From: Polytrichum commune
Lineage: Eukaryota > Streptophyta > Polytrichopsida > Polytrichales > Polytrichaceae
Reading direction: 5' to 3'
Assembly: GCA_950295325.1 (NCBI GenBank)
Contig: OX485804.1
Span: 36,704,001 to 36,768,000, forward strand
Length of the DNA: 64,000 nt
Shown here one piece after another: positions 38,391 to 63,099 of the stretch (position 1 is the stretch's first letter; the number at the start of each line of letters is the position of its first letter). The notes beneath the pieces are model-generated. The model was not told the origin of the DNA and did not search any database. It was given only the letters and a program-made list of their open reading frames with translations. The translations under genes were made by a program, and so were the position numbers.

Positions 38391-38520
38391 GTAAAGGTAG
38401 GTGCAGGAATCGTGTGGTGTTCACACGCAGATTTGTATGCAAGAGAACTTGTAGTGGATCGATCTGGAAGACATAAATCCTTGGTGGATCTGGAGTTAGG
38501 AGGTGTGTAGCTTGCTCTCA

Positions 38521-41500
38521 ATGCAAGCAATGGGAGGGGTGACGAGAGAGATGGCGGTGCTTCTGCTGCTTGCTCTTTCTGCAGCTCTTTTGTTCGGTAG
38601 TGTTCAAGGTGCAGCACCTGCGCCTAAGAAGCCTCCGGTGACTCGTGCACCATCGCCTAAGGTGCAGCCACCTGCTTCACCTCCTGTGTTCTCTCCTGCT
38701 CCTGAGCCTGCTCCGCTATGGCCGTTCTGCGAGGGTGTGGATATCGTGTATGTGACGACGTTCACGGAGAAGATTTACCCCTACCTCAATGACACACCGT
38801 GGATCCAGCCTTACAAATTTGAATCTCAGGTCACACTAACTAACATGGGGTATTCGACTGTGGAGGCTTGGGCTATGGGGATCAAGTTCCAGTATCACGA
38901 GGTGAGCATTCTGGTCATGCTAAGAAACAGTTCACCAATTTGGATGTGCTTTGCAGTTGAACACAAACCATTCCGGATCTGCATAGCTTTGGATCGGCAG
39001 ATCAGTCTAACTTTGTTGGGCAGATAAAGTCCCTAGTTTGTAGCGGGGTTCAGTTTATTTTAGTTTTGTCGGGGAAATGAAGGCGATCTGTTTGAAAAGA
39101 AATGTTCAGGTTTCCCGAAGGAAATTCATTACTTCAGACCAAGATGACTTGTTGTGATGGTAGTGTGATGTAAATACTCCCCAACCTTACAGACTGTCTT
39201 GTGCACTTGGACAGATTCTTGTGGATGCTGATTCTGGAGGTGTGGTTCTGGAGGACGGAGCTCCATACCCCGTTGACGTGTCGAATGGGACGATTCTCAC
39301 AGAATCTCCTCCCGGAACTTTGAAGAATGCCATTGAGACAGCCGGGGATCTAACGCAAATTCAAAAAGTTTTCACCATCACAGGTACTGAGTTCGGGAAG
39401 AAGCACGATCCAATGCCGCTGGACATCAACATCACCGCCAAGGGCTACAATTGCAGCGCAGGGAAGTTGTATGGAAGTAAGTAGCCAGCATTTGGCATCA
39501 CTACGATTCTTCCAAATTCTGGTGATATCAGTTGCTCCACAATCGTCTTGATGCTCACTGTCCTTCACTCCTCAAAATCTCTCCTTCACTCCTGATGGTC
39601 TTGATGAAGGCTGACTGTGATCCTTTTTCCACTACAGATTTCACTATGCACGCGTGCTGCCTTGAACCAAACAAGAACATCACCCTAACCGGCGACAACA
39701 TTTTCCTGCCGTCCGAAACGGGAAACATCACCATCACCTACGATGTCACCCAGGCTTACGGTAGCAGCTACCAAGCACAGGTGAGACTTGCATCCTCATG
39801 CATTGTTTCCTTACGGGAGACAATCTTCCATTGGAAGAATATTCAATATCCTTAATCCTCTTTGTTTGTGTGTGAATGTAGGTCACGATTTCCAACGACA
39901 GCCCGATTGAAAGGATTGACGGCTGGAACCTCTCTTGGACATGGCAAGAGGGGGAGTTCATCACTCAAATGAGGGGAGCGCAGACAAAAGAAGCAGACCT
40001 TTACGTCTGTCTTGATGGCATTGCAGGGACGACATATGGCGGAGCCTTAGATCTCAACAAGGCAGTAAGCTGTGCCACCAGCCCCCAGATTCTTGACCTT
40101 CCTGTCGACATGACCAATAACACACAACTTGGTTACGTCAAATACTGCTGCAAGAACGGTACAATCATGCCTGCTATTATTGATCCCTCGAAATCAAAGG
40201 CTGCATTCACTATGATGGTCTACAAGCTTCCTCCTGGCAATAACAAGCTGAGCCACATCGTCCCTCCTGGAAATTTTAGATTTGGAGATGGCTACTACCA
40301 GTGCGGTCCACCCCGGTTGATTGAACCTTCAGTCATCCCTCCCGATCCAGCCACGTTGCAACATGAGGTTACAGCTTACAAAACTTGGCAGGTAATATCT
40401 CTGCATATCTACAGAAAAGGTTATGAATGTTTCGGTGTAGGAGTTTATGCAGTCTTGACTTGCTTCTGTCTACTTTATCATGTGACCTTTACACAACAAA
40501 GGTGGTTGTGGTTAACCACAGTTCTCATCCACAACTACGATTTACTTCATTCAACCCTTGTCTTGTGTGGATCCTTGCGGTTGTTAATGGTGGGATTTGT
40601 CTTCTATATCGCAATCTATTATTGCTTTTAGGTCTTAAACTCGAGAAGAAATTAAAGTTATCATCATCCTTTGTCGCCTTGGATTGTGGTGTTAGAGCGG
40701 TTGCTCCACTTTCTCCCCTGGACCTTGGTCTCAAAGCTCTCTAGAGTAATGCCACACTACCAAGGTGGTTGTGGTTTTCTTCACTCAACACTTAGTCTTG
40801 TGCGAATTATTGCGGGTGTGATCTTTTAAATCGAAATTTATCATTGGTTTAGGTCCAGTTCTGGGCTCGAAAAGAAATTAAGGTGGTCAATATCCTTGTC
40901 GACCTTGGATTGTGGTGGTTAAGTGTTGCCTCCTCAACTTTCTCCCCGAAACTTGGGTCTCGAAAGCTCTCTAGTGACCTTCCACAGTAAGAAGGTGCTT
41001 GTGGTTGTGGTTAACCACAGTAACCAGTCTGGTGGTCGTAATTGTGGATCTGTAGTATGTCTTCTATATCGCAATCTATCAGTGGTTCAGATCTTGGACC
41101 GAAGAAGAAATTATAATCATTATTTGACCTTGGGCTTGTAGTGTTAAAAGTGGTTGTCTCCTCAACTTTCTGGAATTATGATGCCACATGTGCTTAAACA
41201 ACTTCTTCAATTTCTGTGCAGGTCACTTGCAACATCACCGGTGAAGTGAAGAGGACTCCGAAGTGCTGTTTATCATTCTCCGGTTACTACAACGACTCCG
41301 TTGTTCCATGCCGGTCGTGTGCTTGCGGATGTCCGCAACAGACTCAGCCAGCATGTTCAAACGGCACAGCCATGCTGCTTCCGTATGGTGCACTAACCCT
41401 AGCCCCGGTGAATCGAACTGCTCAAATTCTAGCCTGGGCGAGTCTGAACCATAAACCTATCCCCAATCCTCTTCCTTGTTCGGACAATTGCGGTGTCAAC

Positions 41501-41968
41501 ATCAATTGGCATATAGTCTCCGATTTCACCAAGGGATGGAGTGCTCGAATGACTCTGTTGGACTGGTCCAACGTCACTTACCCGGACTGGTACGCAGTTG
41601 TGGAGATGGACAAGGCTTATGCAGGATTACAGCAAGCCTACTCATTCAACGCTACAAAGCTATCTGCAGTCAACAACAGTCTTCTCAACAACACTTTCGT
41701 GGTACAAGGCCTGCCTGGACTCAATTACTTGATGGCGGCACAAAATCTTTCATCAGGGAAGCTGCAATCGGTGTTCTCCTTCACCAAGGACACCACTCCA
41801 AACATCCAAGTCCCTCTGGGAGACGGATTCCCGAACAGGATCTGGTTCAATGGTGAAGAATGTGTGTTGCCCGATTCCATCCCGAGTAGCTCAATCCGAT
41901 TGGCTCCACCAATCGCAACAGCAATTGCGTCACTGATCTCAGCACTCGTAGTCGGGCTCCTCCTGTGA
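38521..41968 (+). CDS. COBRA-like GPI-anchored cell-wall protein (COBL7/10 type), five coding exons
   Basis: Exons 38521-38901, 39215-39476, 39638-39780, 39882-40391 and 41222-41968 join in phase through GT-AG sites to about 680 residues, the usual length of the long COBRA-like subgroup. Residues 1-30 form a signal peptide (L-L-L-L-A-L core). Residues 31-66 are rich in Pro and Ala. Next come an N-terminal domain and the COBRA domain with W-N-L-S-W-T-W, the G-D-G-Y-Y-Q-C block and the Cys-rich P-C-R-S-C-A-C-G-C motif (about 461-469). A C-terminal hydrophobic tail (about 660-680) after a Ser-rich stretch fits GPI anchoring. Many N-x-S/T sites are present. COBRA family members act at the outer plasma membrane in cellulose deposition and oriented cell expansion. 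ATGs at codons 4 and 11 are alternative starts. The gene appears intact and is the only clear host gene here. Confidence 0.93.
40499..41205 (+). repeat. Threefold ~245-bp tandem repeat filling intron 4 of the COBRA-like gene
   Basis: AAGGTGGTTGTGGTT-type starts occur at about 40,499, 40,760 and 40,991. Each is followed by shared blocks: CTTGTGTG, TATATCGCAATCTAT or a variant, AAGAAATTA, GACCTTGGATTGTGGTG and CTCAACTTTCTCC. The intron (40392-41221, 830 bp) is much longer than the other three (313, 161 and 101 bp), and the array accounts for the excess. Confidence 0.8.
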
Positions 41969-51800: not shown

Positions 51801-52641
51801 CCCATAATTAGCCTATTTCTTTTAATGATGTCAACAATTACCTCAGAAAACTCTCACTCTACAATCCCATGAACCTTCTCTCCGATCTTGTAACTCACCT
51901 TAAATATTCATTATTCGCATGTCACTTTTTTGTTTCTCCTCCATATCCACCATGTGTTCAATCCTTCCAATATATACATGGACGGACAAACATCAACCGG
52001 ATCATCCTCACCAAAAATTTGCCAAATGTAACTTCTTGCTTTAAGCATTGCACCCTCACTACACTCTCCCACTTTGGCTACTTTCTTAGCATTAGTCACA
52101 AATAACTATGTCTAGCATAAAAATGTTACCACCCTTGCAATTGTAACTATGATATTTATTTCAACCTTATATGTCATTTTTGCATAACCACAACTATCAC
52201 ATTCATCTCTTACGCAAAATAATACAATCACTTATATACAAGAGACATTAGTACATCTCAAATTTGCCTTCTATGAGTTGTTATATTGCGACAATCTATT
52301 CACAATCAGCCATTGTAAAGGCATTGTAAATTTTTTTTTTAAATGACTAAATATGTAATGTTTCAATAGAGAATATCTCAATGTTGTTACAATTGAAGTA
52401 TGCCACAATGTTGATCCAAATTGAACATGTTCAATGCGAATTTCGTACATGATTGTAATACTATGGTTGGAAATTGGTCTTGAAACAATGTCTTGACAAT
52501 GGTTTGTCAATGGCTGTTGATTCTTTGCCTTTACAATGCTCGATTGTTTCAATGTTGGAAAGTTCTACTGTTATTCAATATAGATACAATATTGTGTGAA
52601 TACAAAAAGAAAATACTCAGTCAAAAAGTATGAATTTTGTA
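51801..52641. other. Region between the CACTA-like end and the transposase gene
   Basis: No gene is seen. It is probably the 3' flank of the transposase gene within the same element. Confidence 0.35.
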
Positions 52642-55045
52642 TCAAAATTTGTATTTATTGAGAAAGAAATGCCCTACCTTAGAAAAGTTGGGTACTACAT
52701 GTATTGCACATAATATATTAGCAACTTCAAAAACAACATAGGCTGTAGGCAAAGATTGCCACACAAGCTCAGGACAACCAACTAGTCCAGAAAGGTGATT
52801 TGCAGGCACTTCCCTGTACATTCTAAGAAATACCAATTCTTTGCAAAGTTTTTCCCCATCTTCACTTATCACAATTACCTTTAAGAGAAGCCTTATCTGT
52901 CCATATGATGTCACTTCATCTTGGCCACTTGCTTCCATTTGAACGGCTACACTACTAAACCAAGGTCTGTGATGAAAGGAATGTACTGCTCTTGCGTACA
53001 TAGGCCAATCAGCAAAGCGATTAGAAGACCCTGATGGTATGGCTAAGGATGTAAAAATTCGGATGACCTGCATTAGAATCCATGCATTGGTTAATAATGT
53101 TTCTTGTAATATAATTACAAGAGTGAATCGACACACTACTTTCATTGATTATTCTATGAATATTACAGACATACAAACTATTAAAGGTTAAGTAAACAAG
53201 CCTATCATGATTTTACATTTACCTCATCTGAAACCAGCTTGTTATCCATTTTATATAGGTCAAATGCTCCAATAAATTGTTGACGTAACTCAGGCTGCTC
53301 CATCAAGATCCTTTGTGCACTTTTGGGTACAAAATTTAATTGTGTTGAGGCATAAGAAAATTGAAAATCTTCTTTCATCCAAGATAATTGCACGTTGACC
53401 CGATCTCCAGATAGTATATTGGCTCCTGTTGCAACAGCCTTAGACATAATATGTTAATAAGGTTAGTAGATTGTTTTTCCTCACCACCTTATAAAATCAT
53501 AAACCCATTTTAAAAATTCTAAAATAACCTCTAGATGGAAAGGAAGTTGAAGTATTCAGTTCATCAAGTGTAGGGAAGTTGAAGCATTCACCTCATCAAG
53601 TGCAGTGTATTTTTCAGCCTTGGTCTTTTCCTCATATCCATCCTTGTTCATTGATAGTTTTCGCAAAGTATTTAATCTGTAGTTGTGTTTTAAAATTTGA
53701 GATGTTGCATTCCTTTTGTTACTTGCTCTGTAACCCCTCTTCATTAGTGTAATATGAAGTTGTTCATATTGGTTAGTGCTATACTCCCACGGAAGTCCTG
53801 ATCTGCGTATACAATCTGAAAAATGTGACATAGCATGAATTTTGATTGTTTTGAAGCCTGATTTTTTCCACCTTCCCATAGCTTGTTTGAAAGTCATAAC
53901 AACCCTGGAATCAAAACAAACAATATTCATTAGTAAAAACTTATATACCAACACATATTTTATTGAAATATTACGAGACTTTTACACATATACATTGTTG
54001 TTGCACTAAACAAGTGAATTAATATTACCTATTCATGGTGTCATCCATGAGCTCCAATGAGTTGCTGGTGTGCTCAGGGCTTCGACTTGCCAACTTGTAC
54101 CATTTCAAAAACATTACAAAAGCCTTGATGACATTATCCTCAAAGAGATTGATAAGACAAAACACAATCACTTGTTCAAAACGCATACAATAATATCTTT
54201 GTAAGTGTTATAGAAATAATGCATACTAAAAAAATAACCAAGTAAGAAACAAAACTAATACATGTAGACCTTACCTGCATTACAGCCCGATGCTCAAAAG
54301 CAGCAAAGTTAGCGTTGGAGTTGAAGTAGCCTCCTTTATCAGTGCCTAGAACTCTGTAATGAGAGTACCTTGATTCTTTTTGTATTGTTGCCAAACGCTT
54401 GTCCAATTCAAAAATGGCCTTAGAAGTGCAGACTGCCCCTTCACTAGACATATCTCTCAAAATTGAAACCAAGGTTTTAAAAATTCCAATATCTGCTTGG
54501 TGGAGTACATCAACATTGATAGCTGCATATGGATTGCCAAGTTTAGTAGTTCCCCCATTGAAACCCCAGAGAGCACTCTGTAAGAATACACATACCAAGT
54601 AAACCATCAGTATGCATTAACCCCTTATTTGATGCTAACCCCTCAAGACATGACATTCCTTAATTCTTTATTTGATGTTATCAGGACATGATTTTGTTTT
54701 ATCATAATTTCATTTGTAGGCTATTAGTTTTCAACAATTAAGTTTTCAACAATACTGAACAATTAAGTATCTGAGATATTGAAGATGCTTAAAGTAAAAA
54801 CAAACTTACCGCAACAGGATGGAGTGACCACGCCTTAGACAAGTTATCAGAATCGTTTTTGGTGTTTGAATTTTTCCTTGCCTCCATCATTGTAAGATAT
54901 ATCTTCTCCATTTCTTCCTCTATACGCATTGAAAACCTCTTGTCAACATCGCTAAGATGGTCTTTTCCACACATACAAACGCTACAAGGTGATTGACACT
55001 TGTTGGTGTCGTAGGTACATGTAATACCAATTTTCTGGCCATAGC
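52642..55045 (-). CDS. Plavaka-like transposase gene, 5' exons missing, six exons visible
   Basis: Minus-strand exons are 55045-54810, 54577-54275, about 54180-54029, 53904-53592, 53438-53223 and 53067-52642, with GT-AG edges. All junctions keep phase by inspection except the second-to-third, which I could not resolve. Exon 1 has a Cys-rich C-S-V-C-M-C-G segment. Exon 2 has N-V-D-V-L-H-Q-A-D-I-G-I-F-K, matching the D-x-L-H-Q-x-x-x-G-x-F-K signature of Plavaka transposases. Exon 4 has R-R-S-G-L-P and E-Q-L-H-I-T-L-M-K, another family hallmark. Exon 6 has S-F-H-H-R-P-W-F-S and an A-R-L-L-like position (I-R-L-L-L-K). Plavaka is a cut-and-paste DNA transposase family best known in fungi. The N-terminal catalytic exons would lie upstream but the gypsy element begins there. 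No in-frame stop was seen in the listed exons. Confidence 0.7.
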
Positions 55046-55099
55046 CTGGTAGAAAGGAAGAAAAAACTTTTCTTTTGTGATAAAGTAACTAAAAAGATG

Positions 55100-55940
55100 G
55101 ATGAAAGTTAGTCTAGGATGAAAGCGGCAGGCTATAGGCCGAGGGAAGAAGTTTCAGGAGTTGCAACCGTCAGGAGCTCCGATCTTGATAAGCGGGCTAT
55201 CGCCAGAGAGAAGACACTTCTCGTTATATCTACTGAAGCCATAGCTGTAGAGAATCAGGCTATAGGCGATAGAGTTAGACTCAAGCATAGTTGTTTTTTT
55301 GAAGTAGGATCAGAGCTGGAACATCGCCGTCTGTGATAGAGGGATGTAGCTAAGTAAGATGTAATTAGTTTGAGGAAGTAAAGACAGTTGCATGGAAATG
55401 TTGAGTATGGCCATAATATGTATGTGATCATTATTGTTGAATCAGTGCACAAGTAGTTTGCACGAGTGAATGAAATTAGCACGACTTGAGTGGAAGGAGT
55501 TGAGTCAAGCATGAGGATCTGTGAGTGAAGAAGAGCGGCGACCAAAGAGTCTGTTGACAAATTAACGAAGTTGATATCGAAGTTGGAGACATATTGGAAA
55601 AAGGAGAGAGTGAAAGGTCGCAACCTGCATTGTGAAAGAAACCTGTTGGATTGAGATTGAGGAGTTATCTTAAGGTGGAAATCAGAGAGTGATTGGCAGT
55701 GAGAGAGAGGAACGAAGCATAAAGAGGGATGGACTATCGCCGAAGTAAAGATAAATGGAAATGGCCATAGTCTGTAGTTGGGATACAGCGAAGTGAGAGC
55801 ATCTGTAAGAACTTGAGCAAGAGTTGTCAGAACAGTAGGCATAGCCAAGGAGATCAGATTAAGGCTGAGATTACCGAGAAAGGAGAGCCGCAGTAGAAAC
55901 AAGAGAGTTACAGAGCCAACCAAGTTACTGAGAGATACAC

Positions 55941-55975
<35 letters not shown>

Positions 55976-56945
55976 TGCTGAGAGTGGCACAAGAGGAAGA
56001 ACCGAGAGCTGGTAGGCATGGGCACTGGGAGGTCTTATAACTGCCTATAGCCTGTGCGAGAGCGAGAGAGAGAATGAGGGAAAGAGAGTTGTCCGAGGTT
56101 ATCACTAAGAGGGAAGCAATGAGGGCACCAGAAGGTCCACTTAAGTAACCGAGGTTGTCATGATGATAAAGTAGTTCTGAGTTGAGAGACATTACCTCGA
56201 GAGACAAGAAGTTTAGAGGGATTATCGAAACATGATGAGAATCGGAGTGTCATGATGATGTCGAGTCGATAAATAATCCAATCCACAAAGAACGTGCTTT
56301 GACATGATTAGGAATGAGAAAGATATGGTTTGATGTGAGAGGAATTAGGCTAGCCGTTGTAATAGGTTGTGTTGGAACCTAATGGCTATAGCCTATGTGT
56401 TATGTGATTATGGAAGAAGGATGCAGGAATTCAAGCATGTCTTGTGTGTTGTGTGGGACAATGAAGAGCATGAGATAAGTGAATTTTTCATTATGAGTAA
56501 TAAATGATAAATGAGATAAAGTGAAGGAACAAATTCTTTGAGCAATACAATTTGAATTATGATTGATAGCATTAAATAATCAATTAACGAAGGAAGAAGA
56601 TACTAACCCCAATAGGATGAAAATCCATTGGAAGACTATCGCCAAGATCCGAAAAGACTATTGCCAAAGCCATTGAGCTTCACAACTGCAATAGGTCAAA
56701 AACGTAGAGTGATAGAAAATTACCCCAAAGATAGGACGGAATCACTCACGACTGAGGAAGCACAAAAGAACCATAAGAGGGGAGGAATGAAGAATTAAAG
56801 AAGGAATGGAATAAGAAAGAACCTAAGTTGTTATTATGAACCTTAATCCAAAGTGACATTAACCCTTATAGACACTATCTCAGTCTTCCTGGAGACATTG
56901 TTCCCTGGGTTTTGTTGTTTAGAGAGAAACCAAAAACTTACTACA
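55100..56945 (+). mobile_element. Probable 5' LTR of the Ty3/gypsy element (left edge uncertain)
   Basis: The non-coding stretch ends with ACTACA at 56,945, four bases before the primer binding site, as an LTR ending in CA would. The left edge could not be fixed: it lies after the polypyrimidine tract before exon 1 of the transposase gene (about 55,050-55,130). A (GA)n tract is at about 55,943-55,973. CTATCGCC/CTATAGGCC-like motifs recur through the region. The 3' LTR is outside the window, so the edges cannot be checked by self-comparison here. Confidence 0.6.
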
Positions 56946-58035: not shown

Positions 58036-61000
58036 GGACAGATAGTCAAACTGGAATCCGCACATGAAAAATCTCATTCTCAATCTGCATCCGTAAGGAA
58101 GGCAGCTAGTGATAAAGCTAGAGAAGATAGAGCGGCAGCCAGAGAGTATAGGAAACAAACACAGGATAGAAGACGAAGTTGGGTTAAGCCATTTTTAGAG
58201 GAAGCAAGAGAGGGTTCTGGTAGTATCCCAGGAGATATTTTTAAGACACCAGTAAATAAACCTACAACAAGTGTTGAGAGGGATTTCTTATCACCGAAAG
58301 TTTTATTTACTGATAATTCACCTCTCACCAGTTCACCTACTCCACCATTGTGGGCTACTGCCTATGAACGCACACCATCTCCTGAACTTGACCCAAAGGC
58401 TTACGCCAATGTACAAGGCAACCCATTGTTTACGCCTTATACACCGTCAGTACCCATAGCACAATTAGTACCTCCTCCCTTACAACCAGTAGTACAATTA
58501 CAACCCGTAGTACAGCTACCACCGATAGTACCGCTACCCAATATGGCGGCTAATCCTCCTAGGATCAATAGTGTAGTAAACTTACCCTATTTTCAGGGTA
58601 GACCGGGAACAGATCCTGATGTCCATGTGAGGAAATTCGAGATTGCATGTGCTGCAAATAGCGTACCTCCGGACAAACAAATGGAAGTATTTGCAGCAAC
58701 ATTGCAAGAGAACGCATTCTTATGGTTTTCCCGTCAGCAACCATTTGCTAACTGGAACGACCTTAAGAATGCATTCCTGCAATATTTTAGGCCCTTGGGG
58801 TTTGAAAACAGTTTAATGGAGAAATTGAGAACCATTCGTATGAGTATAAATGAAACCATTGACAATTACTGGGGAAGAATGAGTGACATCCTACTGAGAA
58901 TGCCCAACCATCAAATCCCGAATAATTTCTTACGGAATATATTCATAGGAGGTCTATATCCTTTTGAGTTAAAATTATATGTGAGAGAGAGAGCTCCAGC
59001 TACTGCTGAGGCAGCTTTTGCTTTGGCAAAAGCTTGGGAAGAGTCCCGTATAGAGGATCGATACACTTTTGATACTTATAACTACGACCTCTATGACCTA
59101 CATGGGAATGATCAGTCTTATCACCCAGTGTTGCCTGGTCAATCACTAACATATCCAGGTGCTAAGCCCATGATAGATGCCACACAGTTCAAACATCCTA
59201 GTGCAGATTTCTTTACACCCCCAAGGCTAATGATGAAGCCTACACCCGTGGTTCAAAACAATTCACAAGAACTAGCCCTTATGGATATCACAAAGAAGTT
59301 AGCAGATCTAGAGGTAAAGATCACAAAAGGGGCTAATAAAAGACCCCCACCAACTGAAGAGAGAACCAATGTATGGTGTAATAACTGTAAGGGTCATGGT
59401 CATCTGTCTAATGAATGTCCCACTCCCAAAGGTTTGAGAGTTAAGTGCACTTTCTGTGGAGGGAATCATTCAGTCAATGAGTGTTGGAATTTACCTAGAA
59501 ATCGTGCGGTCAACCAGATAGATGCTAACCAATCCCGACCTTGGCAACAAGAGCGAATGGGTGATATGCCCAACATGGGATATAACCCCAAAAGAAATTT
59601 CAACCGTCGGCAAGTGCCTCTTAGTTTTGGGAATCAACCAACTTGGGGTGATACCAATCAACCACCAAATTGGAGGGGTCCTCCATATAACCCCCGAACC
59701 CAAAATTATAAGACACCGATGCCCAACCAGTATGTAGTGTGTTTCAGATGTGGAGAGATAGGTCATTATGCAGGAGACTGTCCTAATCCTAGAAAGGTTC
59801 AACAATATATACCTTTGTGTGGAAATTGTAAAGAGGCAGGACATCCTACAACCGAGTGTGATCAACCCCGTAAGGAGGGTCCACCATCTGATAGAGATTG
59901 GAAGAAAGGTAAACATGTGACTATACAAGAGGATGAGAGACAGGATCGTAATGTCCATAGAGTTCAACACTCTAAGAGATTAGACGAGGAAGTGAGTGTA
60001 GTGACCACTAGATCCCAAAAACAACCTTTAAAGCAACAAAATGGGTCTAGTACTGAGAGGTTTAATGAACAACACAGTGACTTGGAAACGAGTCTCTCTG
60101 AATATGCTCAAGCACCCTTGATCAGAGCTCCAAAGGATAAAATAATTGTGGAAGCTAACGTTGTACCAACAACGATTCTTGAGCAAGCTCAGATTCCATC
60201 GCCATCTGTTGTTACCAACCCTCCAGTTGTTGTCTCCAACCCTCATACACCTATTGTACCCACTAATGTTCTTCACCCCCGTCTAAAGACCTTAGCAAGG
60301 AGAGAAAGGCCTAAGGGTAAAATGACATCATCACGATCGTCTAGAACGATGATGTTATCTAAGGACCTTAAACCCTATGATATCATGGAAGATCTAGATA
60401 AAATACAACCAACTATCACAATGAAACAATTGTTGGCTGTTGCACCACAATGTCGCAGTTCCTTAAGTTCATCCATGATACGTAGACGGCCTAAACCGGC
60501 AACAGTCCATGACATTACTTTAAGTCGAGATCCGGGAGCCCCAACCGTTGATGTCATTATAGGAGGTGCTCTTATACCGGGATTCCAAATTGACACGGGA
60601 TCAAGTGTCAATTTGATGAATGTGGAAACCATGAACGAATTAGGGATATCTAATGTAGTCTCTACCACCATTATTTTAAAAATGGCAGACAGCAGTCGAG
60701 TAAAACCCTTAGGAGTATTGGAACAAATTCCAACTCTCGTAGCCAATATTGAGTATAAGATTGATTATGTCGTCTTTAAGACAATGGACGGTGTACAGTC
60801 TTATCCAGGTCTTCTTGGACGCACATGGTTGCTAGATGCACAAGCCAAAGAAGATTGGGGGAAAGGTACACTGACCATTGGAAGTGGGTTAAAGAAAATA
60901 ATTTTACCTTTATTTCCTACCCAATATCATGGTGAAACGCAAGATGAGGAAACTGAGTTCACCAGTGATGATGGCTATGAAACAGAAAGGGAGACTACGG

Positions 61001-63099
61001 TGAGTGAATCCATACACCGGATAAACGATAAACCATTCCAATATGGCCCCGTAGGAATGGGAGAGTACTTTTGTGCACTTGGTGATGGAGATTCTGATGA
61101 TGCTATTCTAGCCTGGCAGAATACCTTACCGGTAAACATGGTCAACAATACGAAAATACATAGTTTTGACCAACTAAGACTAGTCCATATCGTACAAGAA
61201 GAAGAAGAACGACCCCAAACACTGGTTAAGGATGAATTAGCTAAGAAATGGGAGTCTACCATGTTTGAGTCTGACCAACCTGTCAAAAATTACGTGGTTA
61301 AGAATGTGTGTAAAGATATGAATTTGAGTGATGATAACACACCCCGCATTATCAAAGTCTATGAGAAAATAACGGATGATGAGTGGAAGTTTTGGAGAGA
61401 TTTCTTTAAGAGGAATATTAAAGTCTTTGCATGGACGTACAAAAATTTGCGAGGAGTTCCCCCAGAGATCTGTGAGCATAAGATTATTTTAGAGGAAGGA
61501 ACAACCCCCGTTCGACAAAGACAATATAGGATGAATCCAAAATATTCCCTATTAGTTAAGGAAGAAGTGGATAAATTGTTGGAAGTCGGCATTATCTATC
61601 CTATTCCATATAGTGATTGGGTGTCACCCATAGTCGTAGTACCAAAGAAAAACGGCAAACTACGAATATGCGTGGATTATTGGAAGTTAAACAGTGTCAC
61701 TAAGAAGGATTATTTTCCTCTACCATTCACAGACAGTATGTTGGACGGAGTAGCAGGATATGATTGTTATTCCTTTATGGATGGATTTTCTGGGTATAAC
61801 CAAATTTCAATATATCCACCCCACCGTCCCTTAACTGCTTTCACGACACCATGGGGTGTCTTCGCACATGCCCGTATGCCGTTTGGTATGTGTAACTCCC
61901 CTGGAACCTTTTCTAGATTAGGGGTTAACACATTTCAGAAATATCTCCATCGTACAATGGAAGTCTTCCTGGATGATTTTGCAGTCTATAGCACCAAAGA
62001 GAAACATGCACAACATCTTCAAGAATGTTTTGATGAGTGTATGAAAGTTGGAATTTCTATTAATACAGCCAAGTCAGTGTTTCTGGTACCATTTGGTAAG
62101 TTGGTAGGTCACATAATATCAAAACAAGGGGTTGCGACTGACCCTGAGAAAATCGCAATCATCTCTTCATTACCTATACCAACCACCGTTTCAGAGGTCA
62201 AAGGATTTTTAGGACACACGGGCTACTATCGTCGTTTCATCTTTCGTTATTCGGTCATCGCTATGCCATTGACTGAATTGTTAAAGAGGACCGATACCCC
62301 ACCCGTTTGGACTCAGGCATGTACGGAAGCCTTTAATAAACTTAAAAAGAAATTAGCCTCTGCACCAATATTAGTAGCTCCTAATTGGGAAAAAGACTTT
62401 GAAGTGTATGTAGATGCGTCAAATGTAGCAGTTGGGGCTGTGTTAAGCCAAAAAGATGAGAAAGGTCATGACCATCCTATATACTTTGCTAGTCGTCAAT
62501 TAGTTCAGGCAGAGCGTAATTATACAGTCACGGAGAGGGAAGCCCTAGGAATGATCTTCTCAGTGCAAAAGTTTAGACATTACCTATTAGGGTATAAGTT
62601 TGTATTCCATGTCGATCACGATGCCCTAAAGTACATGATAAACAAACCCCAATTAAGTGGAAGAATAGCTAGATGGGTTTTATTATTACAAGAGTTCAAT
62701 TTCACTATCCAAGTTCGACCTGGTAAGAGTCATGCTAACGCAGACCACTTATCACGGTTAAGTGATGCGTTAGGCACTGAACCCATCGATGACTCCTTCC
62801 CCGATGCTGATTTATTTTTCATAGAAAAGGTGTCTCCTGAATACGCTGAGATAATTAACTACTTACAAACCAATACATTCCCTAGGGATTTTTCTAAAAA
62901 ACAACAACAGCGATTGGCTTTTAGAGCAGCTCCATACTCGATCATTGCCGACACGTTGTACAAAAAGGGCAAAGATGGTGTATTGAGACGTTGTATTCTG
63001 AGTTCAGAAATACCCTTGATTTTGCAAGGATGTCATAGTGACCCCGCAGGAGGTCATTTTGCGGGGAATGTCACTGCTAGAAAAGTCTTACAAGCATGA
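58036..63099 (+). CDS. Ty3/gypsy gag-pol polyprotein (OTA-like), ends at an in-frame TGA in integrase
   Basis: The frame is open from 58,036 (no ATG before about 58,348; numbering below starts at 58,348). Domains in order: retrotransposon gag (about 82-230); four CCHC zinc knuckles starting at residues 344, 367, 465 and 491 (the second has one residue fewer between C and H); protease with D-T-G-S-S at about 749; reverse transcriptase with first Asp in F-M-D-G-F-S-G-Y (1145) and M-E-V-F-L-D-D-F (1209-1210); RNase H with Y-V-D-A-S (Asp 1356), T-E-R-E and A-D-H-L-S-R; start of the integrase zinc finger. The L-D-D-F form and the tRNA-Asp-like primer site indicate the non-chromoviral Ogre/Tat/Athila-like branch. 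Trp replaces the usual Arg of D-Y-R-K-L-N at 61,681. Reading stops at TGA 63097-63099, so this copy is defective. Confidence 0.92.
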   Translation, partial: GQIVKLESAHEKSHSQSASVRKAASDKAREDRAAAREYRKQTQDRRRSWVKPFLEEAREGSGSIPGDIFKTPVNKPTTSVERDFLSPKVLFTDNSPLTSSPTPPLWATAYERTPSPELDPKAYANVQGNPLFTPYTPSVPIAQLVPPPLQPVVQLQPVVQLPPIVPLPNMAANPPRINSVVNLPYFQGRPGTDPDVHVRKFEIACAANSVPPDKQMEVFAATLQENAFLWFSRQQPFANWNDLKNAFLQYFRPLGFENSLMEKLRTIRMSINETIDNYWGRMSDILLRMPNHQIPNNFLRNIFIGGLYPFELKLYVRERAPATAEAAFALAKAWEESRIEDRYTFDTYNYDLYDLHGNDQSYHPVLPGQSLTYPGAKPMIDATQFKHPSADFFTPPRLMMKPTPVVQNNSQELALMDITKKLADLEVKITKGANKRPPPTEERTNVWCNNCKGHGHLSNECPTPKGLRVKCTFCGGNHSVNECWNLPRNRAVNQIDANQSRPWQQERMGDMPNMGYNPKRNFNRRQVPLSFGNQPTWGDTNQPPNWRGPPYNPRTQNYKTPMPNQYVVCFRCGEIGHYAGDCPNPRKVQQYIPLCGNCKEAGHPTTECDQPRKEGPPSDRDWKKGKHVTIQEDERQDRNVHRVQHSKRLDEEVSVVTTRSQKQPLKQQNGSSTERFNEQHSDLETSLSEYAQAPLIRAPKDKIIVEANVVPTTILEQAQIPSPSVVTNPPVVVSNPHTPIVPTNVLHPRLKTLARRERPKGKMTSSRSSRTMMLSKDLKPYDIMEDLDKIQPTITMKQLLAVAPQCRSSLSSSMIRRRPKPATVHDITLSRDPGAPTVDVIIGGALIPGFQIDTGSSVNLMNVETMNELGISNVVSTTIILKMADSSRVKPLGVLEQIPTLVANIEYKIDYVVFKTMDGVQSYPGLLGRTWLLDAQAKEDWGKGTLTIGSGLKKIILPLFPTQYHGETQDEETEFTSDDGYETERETTVSESIHRINDKPFQYGPVGMGEYFCALGDGDSDDAILAWQNTLPVNMVNNTKIHSFDQLRLVHIVQEEEERPQTLVKDELAKKWESTMFESDQPVKNYVVKNVCKDMNLSDDNTPRIIKVYEKITDDEWKFWRDFFKRNIKVFAWTYKNLRGVPPEICEHKIILEEGTTPVRQRQYRMNPKYSLLVKEEVDKLLEVGIIYPIPYSDWVSPIVVVPKKNGKLRICVDYWKLNSVTKKDYFPLPFTDSMLDGVAGYDCYSFMDGFSGYNQISIYPPHRPLTAFTTPWGVFAHARMPFGMCNSPGTFSRLGVNTFQKYLHRTMEVFLDDFAVYSTKEKHAQHLQECFDECMKVGISINTAKSVFLVPFGKLVGHIISKQGVATDPEKIAIISSLPIPTTVSEVKGFLGHTGYYRRFIFRYSVIAMPLTELLKRTDTPPVWTQACTEAFNKLKKKLASAPILVAPNWEKDFEVYVDASNVAVGAVLSQKDEKGHDHPIYFASRQLVQAERNYTVTEREALGMIFSVQKFRHYLLGYKFVFHVDHDALKYMINKPQLSGRIARWVLLLQEFNFTIQVRPGKSHANADHLSRLSDALGTEPIDDSFPDADLFFIEKVSPEYAEIINYLQTNTFPRDFSKKQQQRLAFRAAPYSIIADTLYKKGKDGVLRRCILSSEIPLILQGCHSDPAGGHFAGNVTARKVLQA

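Follow-up and report, generated by a model that had tools for sequence, protein, structure and literature searches.

According to our literature search, Plavaka transposons have been reported in fungi, one animal-related protist and one green alga. The residues D, D, C(2)C, H(3-4)H and E have been described for the transposases of Plavaka and its relatives, target duplications measure 2 bp (Plavaka A and B) or 3 bp (Plavaka B), and PlavakaB of Agaricomycetes has the ends CATCA...TGATG (PMC12730594). The EnSpm-Plavaka elements of Auxenochlorella represent Plavaka-type cut-and-paste transposons in the green lineage, with a green alga as host rather than a land plant (PMC12636532). The CACTA/En-Spm elements of flowering plants, which fall in a related DDE clade, have two proteins, introns and interiors that vary between copies (PMC4158355). 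No report of Plavaka in a land plant was found in the searchable literature, with Repbase and most subscription papers lying outside it, which is weak evidence of absence.

Here we analysed a window of 64,000 nucleotides, that is, the whole stretch of DNA under study (G000:C2:36704001-36768000), together with the 408-Mb genome to which it belongs, which has seven large contigs. Its feature of interest is most probably, at about 0.92, the 3' half of a transposase gene belonging to a cut-and-paste transposon of Plavaka type in a plant, a member of a small, recently moved two-gene family. Six coding blocks on the minus strand, with splice signals that join them, give a 533-aa open frame within the window and correspond to exons 6-11 of an 11-exon gene. 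Conserved exons matching these blocks are present at about 14 other loci, which is far beyond chance. The sequence-only reading had picked out these six stop-free exons, proposed a multi-exon Plavaka gene in a plant genome and pointed beyond the 3' LTR of a gypsy element for the missing 5' exons; all of this was borne out, with exons 1-5 found where expected. Exon 1 has a zinc-finger-like start, MDSIKLACTRCGAINFSNRGALGSHQASTRC.

The Plavaka identity was placed on a firmer footing by profile search. The joined protein, including the exons beyond the 3' LTR and with an X placed at the stop in exon 2, matched the Pfam Plavaka family (PF18759) at 131.7 bits (E 4.7e-38) over profile positions 35-322 of 325, against 17.8 bits for the protein of the 3' half alone, which is below the 26.3-bit cut-off. 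The protein of a second subfamily, C, gave an E of 2.5e-41. With the window-copy and C-subfamily proteins, no other Pfam family, including the CACTA family PF02992, matched at E up to 1. Catalytic-type residues were assigned by motif, following PMC12730594, and D82, D183, C203/C206, H433/H437 and E457 are invariant across subfamilies A, B and C. The first D occurs in exon 3 (YSDQT) and the second in exon 5 (CDHPEG). A comparison of the transposase protein with PDB structures returned nothing credible, and no relatives were found in viral contigs.

The ends of the DNA transposon were located as CATCTCAAA...TTTGAGATG, and the window element, flanked by TA at either end, occupies C2:36756254-36779038. 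Right ends of the A, B and C copies all finish in ...GAGATG, and the left ends, taken from upstream sequence, read CATCTCAAAGACGGC in A and CATCTCGATTTCTGACTCC in C. The terminal inverted repeats are short (CATCTCAAA), with 9 bp in A and 11 bp in C, the former being the first 9 bases of the right terminal sequence CATCTCAAATTTGCCTTCTATG. Two-ended copies were defined as genome-wide matches to the A and C ends, paired by position and orientation only. Identical 2-bp flanks occur in six of six such A copies (TA, GA, TA, TT, TT, AC) and in four of six C copies (CA, TA, AT, CA), the other two C copies being without matching flanks. Ten matches in twelve, at a chance of about 1 in 16 each, are far beyond random expectation. 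LINE-like or Helitron spread had been considered because the right ends are constant and the left breakpoints variable; it was ruled out by the common left ends and the 2-bp duplications. The A right end has no long inverted counterpart on the 5' side, and every exact match to the 22-bp end is a right end. At C4:54503196-54503558, a fragment of an A right end directly adjoins a C right end, as if one element had inserted at the other's end.

These features bring the element close to PlavakaB, with which it shares the D, D, C(2)C, H(3-4)H, E arrangement of the transposase, CATC...GATG ends and 2-bp duplications, PlavakaB also making 3-bp ones (PMC12730594). The fifth terminal base differs, the ends here being CATCTC...GAGATG rather than CATCA...TGATG, while the four terminal bases agree. 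The host also differs, a plant in place of Agaricomycetes, as does the presence of a second conserved gene without a TET/JBP domain recognised by Pfam. We would class the element as a two-gene land-plant variant of Plavaka type, whose ends and target duplication bring it near PlavakaB and make it a possible member of that subgroup.

The second gene is common to subfamilies A, B and C. It lies near the left end on the strand opposite to the transposase gene and comprises several exons that join to about 280 aa. The two genes are divergent, being transcribed apart from the middle of the element, with the transposase running toward the right end and the second gene toward the left. We found the second gene in the window copy, in the copies at C2:34.44 and C4:0.92 Mb, in the three A derivatives described below, in three B copies and in most C copies. 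Genome-wide, its matches fall at Plavaka copies or at loci with Plavaka ends, the exceptions being two short matches on C7 and C3. A divergent second gene that is conserved across subfamilies and almost confined to these elements is new. Protein identity between subfamilies is about 33-45%, with pN below pS. The second-gene protein had no Pfam match over the cut-off, nor a credible match in the PDB. In CACTA elements, the ORF2 protein supports excision and transposition (PMC4158355), and by analogy the second-gene protein may be an accessory transposition factor. We consider it an even bet that these elements define a two-gene, land-plant lineage of Plavaka, in which the transposase is accompanied by a divergent accessory protein of a new family, co-inherited across subfamilies under purifying selection, possibly acting in end binding or against silencing and paralleling the second protein of CACTA.

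The window copy carries three lesions: the gypsy insertion in exon 6, a TAA in exon 2 and a mutated acceptor at exon 8. The gypsy insertion, 14.8 kb in length, interrupts the coding sequence no more than 11 bases into exon 6. Bases from 55020 upward belong to its LTR, and Plavaka sequence resumes at 55019, slightly inside exon 6. The sequence-only reading had started its first block at 55045 on the minus strand; the block is a real exon, but its leading residues, YGQKIG..., are encoded by the LTR. The divergence of the two LTRs suggests that the insertion occurred about half a million years ago, assuming angiosperm-like mutation rates. At exon 8, three paralogues read AACAG/GTGATTGTG, and the window copy reads AACAAGTGATTGTG, a change of AACAG to AACAA. 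Because the paralogues keep AACAG where the window copy is mutated, the acceptor at 54138 is not the ancestral junction, and exon 8 starts at 54171. The second-to-third junction, which the sequence-only reading had drawn at 54138 and itself doubted, is indeed broken. The impression of little decay is right within the six blocks and fails for the gene as a whole. Judged by its three lesions, the window copy is dead, neither active nor domesticated. Table 1 lists the features of the locus.

Table 1. Features of the Plavaka-type element and the nested gypsy element. Coordinates are those of the window unless a contig is given; values above 64000 extend the window numbering beyond the window end on C2.
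Feature	Coordinates	Strand	Remarks
2-bp target duplication TA, right end of Plavaka element	52252..52253	.	Partner TA at C2:36779039-36779040, beyond the window
Right terminal sequence CATCTCAAATTTGCCTTCTATG (as read on +)	52254..52275	.	Homology of A copies stops here; exact copies in the genome
Transposase exon 11 (last; stop codon included)	52642..53067	-	Open frame, conserved in A, B and C copies
Transposase exon 10	53223..53438	-	Open frame, conserved in paralogues
Transposase exon 9	53592..53904	-	HAMSH (H(3)H) and YEQLH (last acidic residue)
Transposase exon 8	54029..54171	-	Borders from paralogues; acceptor mutated in the window copy
Transposase exon 7	54275..54577	-	
Transposase exon 6	54810..55019	-	Gypsy insertion near the 5' end; C(2)C motif CSVC
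Transposase exons 1-5, beyond the gypsy 3' LTR	~C2:36775228 down to 36773983		Model based solely on homology and splice signals
5-bp target duplication GTACA of gypsy	55015..55019	.	Second copy right after the 3' LTR, extended 69811-69815
Gypsy 5' LTR	55020..56945	+	3' LTR at extended 67871-69810, 99.28% identical
Gypsy long open frame (gag-pol)	58036..63099	+	Belongs to gypsy, not to the Plavaka element; identity by reading, not profile
Second gene, window copy	G000:C2:36776755-36777913	+	Beyond the window

To place the window copy within its family, we searched the genome with the transposase protein, obtaining 87 exon matches on C1-C6. The copies form three main subfamilies, A (the window copy and three more), B (four copies) and C (six copies), and a degraded subfamily, D. 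Subfamily A further includes three derivatives of about 5.7 kb each. DNA identity within each of A, B and C is about 97-98%, which supports recent activity of the family; of the sequence-only suggestion of an active or recently active element, recent activity is supported for the family, and activity of the window copy is not. Damage in the A and B copies takes the form of truncation, stops, frameshifts or a 0.5-kb insert, and all six C copies (L047-L052) share a TAA at one place in an N-terminal exon, which could mean that another element helped C to spread or that an exon border was misread. None of the copies that we examined is intact, every frame-checked one being damaged. By simple counts, the dN/dS within A is 0.67-0.85, near neutral, for the three pairs comparable over all exons; the A2 values, which include a non-homologous segment, were left out. 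Between subfamilies, the transposase shows a saturated pS of 0.76-0.82 and a pN of 0.29-0.33, again by simple counts. As read from these counts, the substitution pattern is what is usually left by a transposase that worked while the family spread and whose copies decayed after insertion.

Some copies differ in their interiors. The A copies at C4:0.92 Mb (L042) and C2:34.44 Mb (L040) lack their middle part, with the first transposase exons, and have in its place 1.4-1.8 kb of unrelated DNA, which differs between the two. Near the left end of the window copy (L057, C2:36778001-36779200) there are about 300 additional bases and a short repeat of element sequence, which the C4 copy lacks.

With the locus read as a Plavaka-type transposon, the transposase would cut at the element ends, the excised element would join a new site and repair of the 2-bp stagger would leave the target duplication, with the accessory protein probably aiding the binding of ends, excision or evasion of silencing. 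Afterwards, the window copy lost function through the gypsy insertion into exon 6, the exon-2 stop and the exon-8 acceptor mutation. The alternative raised from the sequence alone, a host gene domesticated from a Plavaka transposase, drew on six open exons with few changes and on the rarity of Plavaka-type proteins in plants; we give it almost no weight, since the sequence is present in many copies with mobile ends, terminal repeats and target duplications, the frame is split by gypsy and further broken by the stop and the lost acceptor, and the dN/dS of comparable A pairs is that given above. Contamination of the assembly by fungal DNA, or a misjoin of such DNA, would account for a transposon best known from fungi, yet the copies lie in six chromosome-scale contigs, gypsy is nested in one of the copies, and the window and the assembly contain a COBRA-like gene (by reading) and RbcS clusters, respectively, so that this explanation is barely conceivable.

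The describers of Lanisha reportedly worked on mosses, and the host here may be a bryophyte, two points that we counted toward a Lanisha-type element matching the Plavaka profile by chance. Lanisha, cited in PMC12730594, is a neighbour of Plavaka within the same wider DDE clade; the near full-length match to the Plavaka profile and the PlavakaB-like CATC...GATG ends with 2-bp duplications make this alternative unlikely. A divergent plant CACTA (EnSpm) element is, in our judgement, very unlikely. CACTA shares one wider DDE clade with Plavaka (PMC12730594), and plant CACTA elements likewise have introns, a second gene and variable interiors (PMC4158355). However, CACTA elements have CACTA ends, 3-bp target duplications and PF02992 (PMC4158355), and the present element differs in all three, its PF02992 result standing against the strong Plavaka match. 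Moreover, hundreds of true CACTA transposase candidates occur in this genome, and the Plavaka group is a separate minority. Should the placement of the element as Plavaka-type hold, Plavaka transposons with defined ends and target duplications would reach beyond fungi and algae to include a land plant, together with an accessory gene that lends itself to testing. It would bear on the origin of Plavaka, by old presence in the green lineage or by lateral transfer, and on the frequency with which a second protein is recruited in this DDE clade of transposons.

As to the host, the RbcS clusters and the COBRA-like gene, the latter recognised by reading, identify it from sequence as a photosynthetic plant, in keeping with the plant genome assumed at the outset. 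The COBRA-like gene has several exons and lies at 38500-41968 of the window on the plus strand; no profile was used in recognising it. RbcS genes are clustered, with plant Rubisco chains as their best matches. In all, the Rubisco small subunit gave 19 matches in four clusters, at C7:30.9-31.7 Mb, C1:13.8-13.9 Mb, C2:46.25 Mb and C6:4.24 Mb, and the closest solved relative is PDB 9pvb, well ahead of other Rubisco chains.
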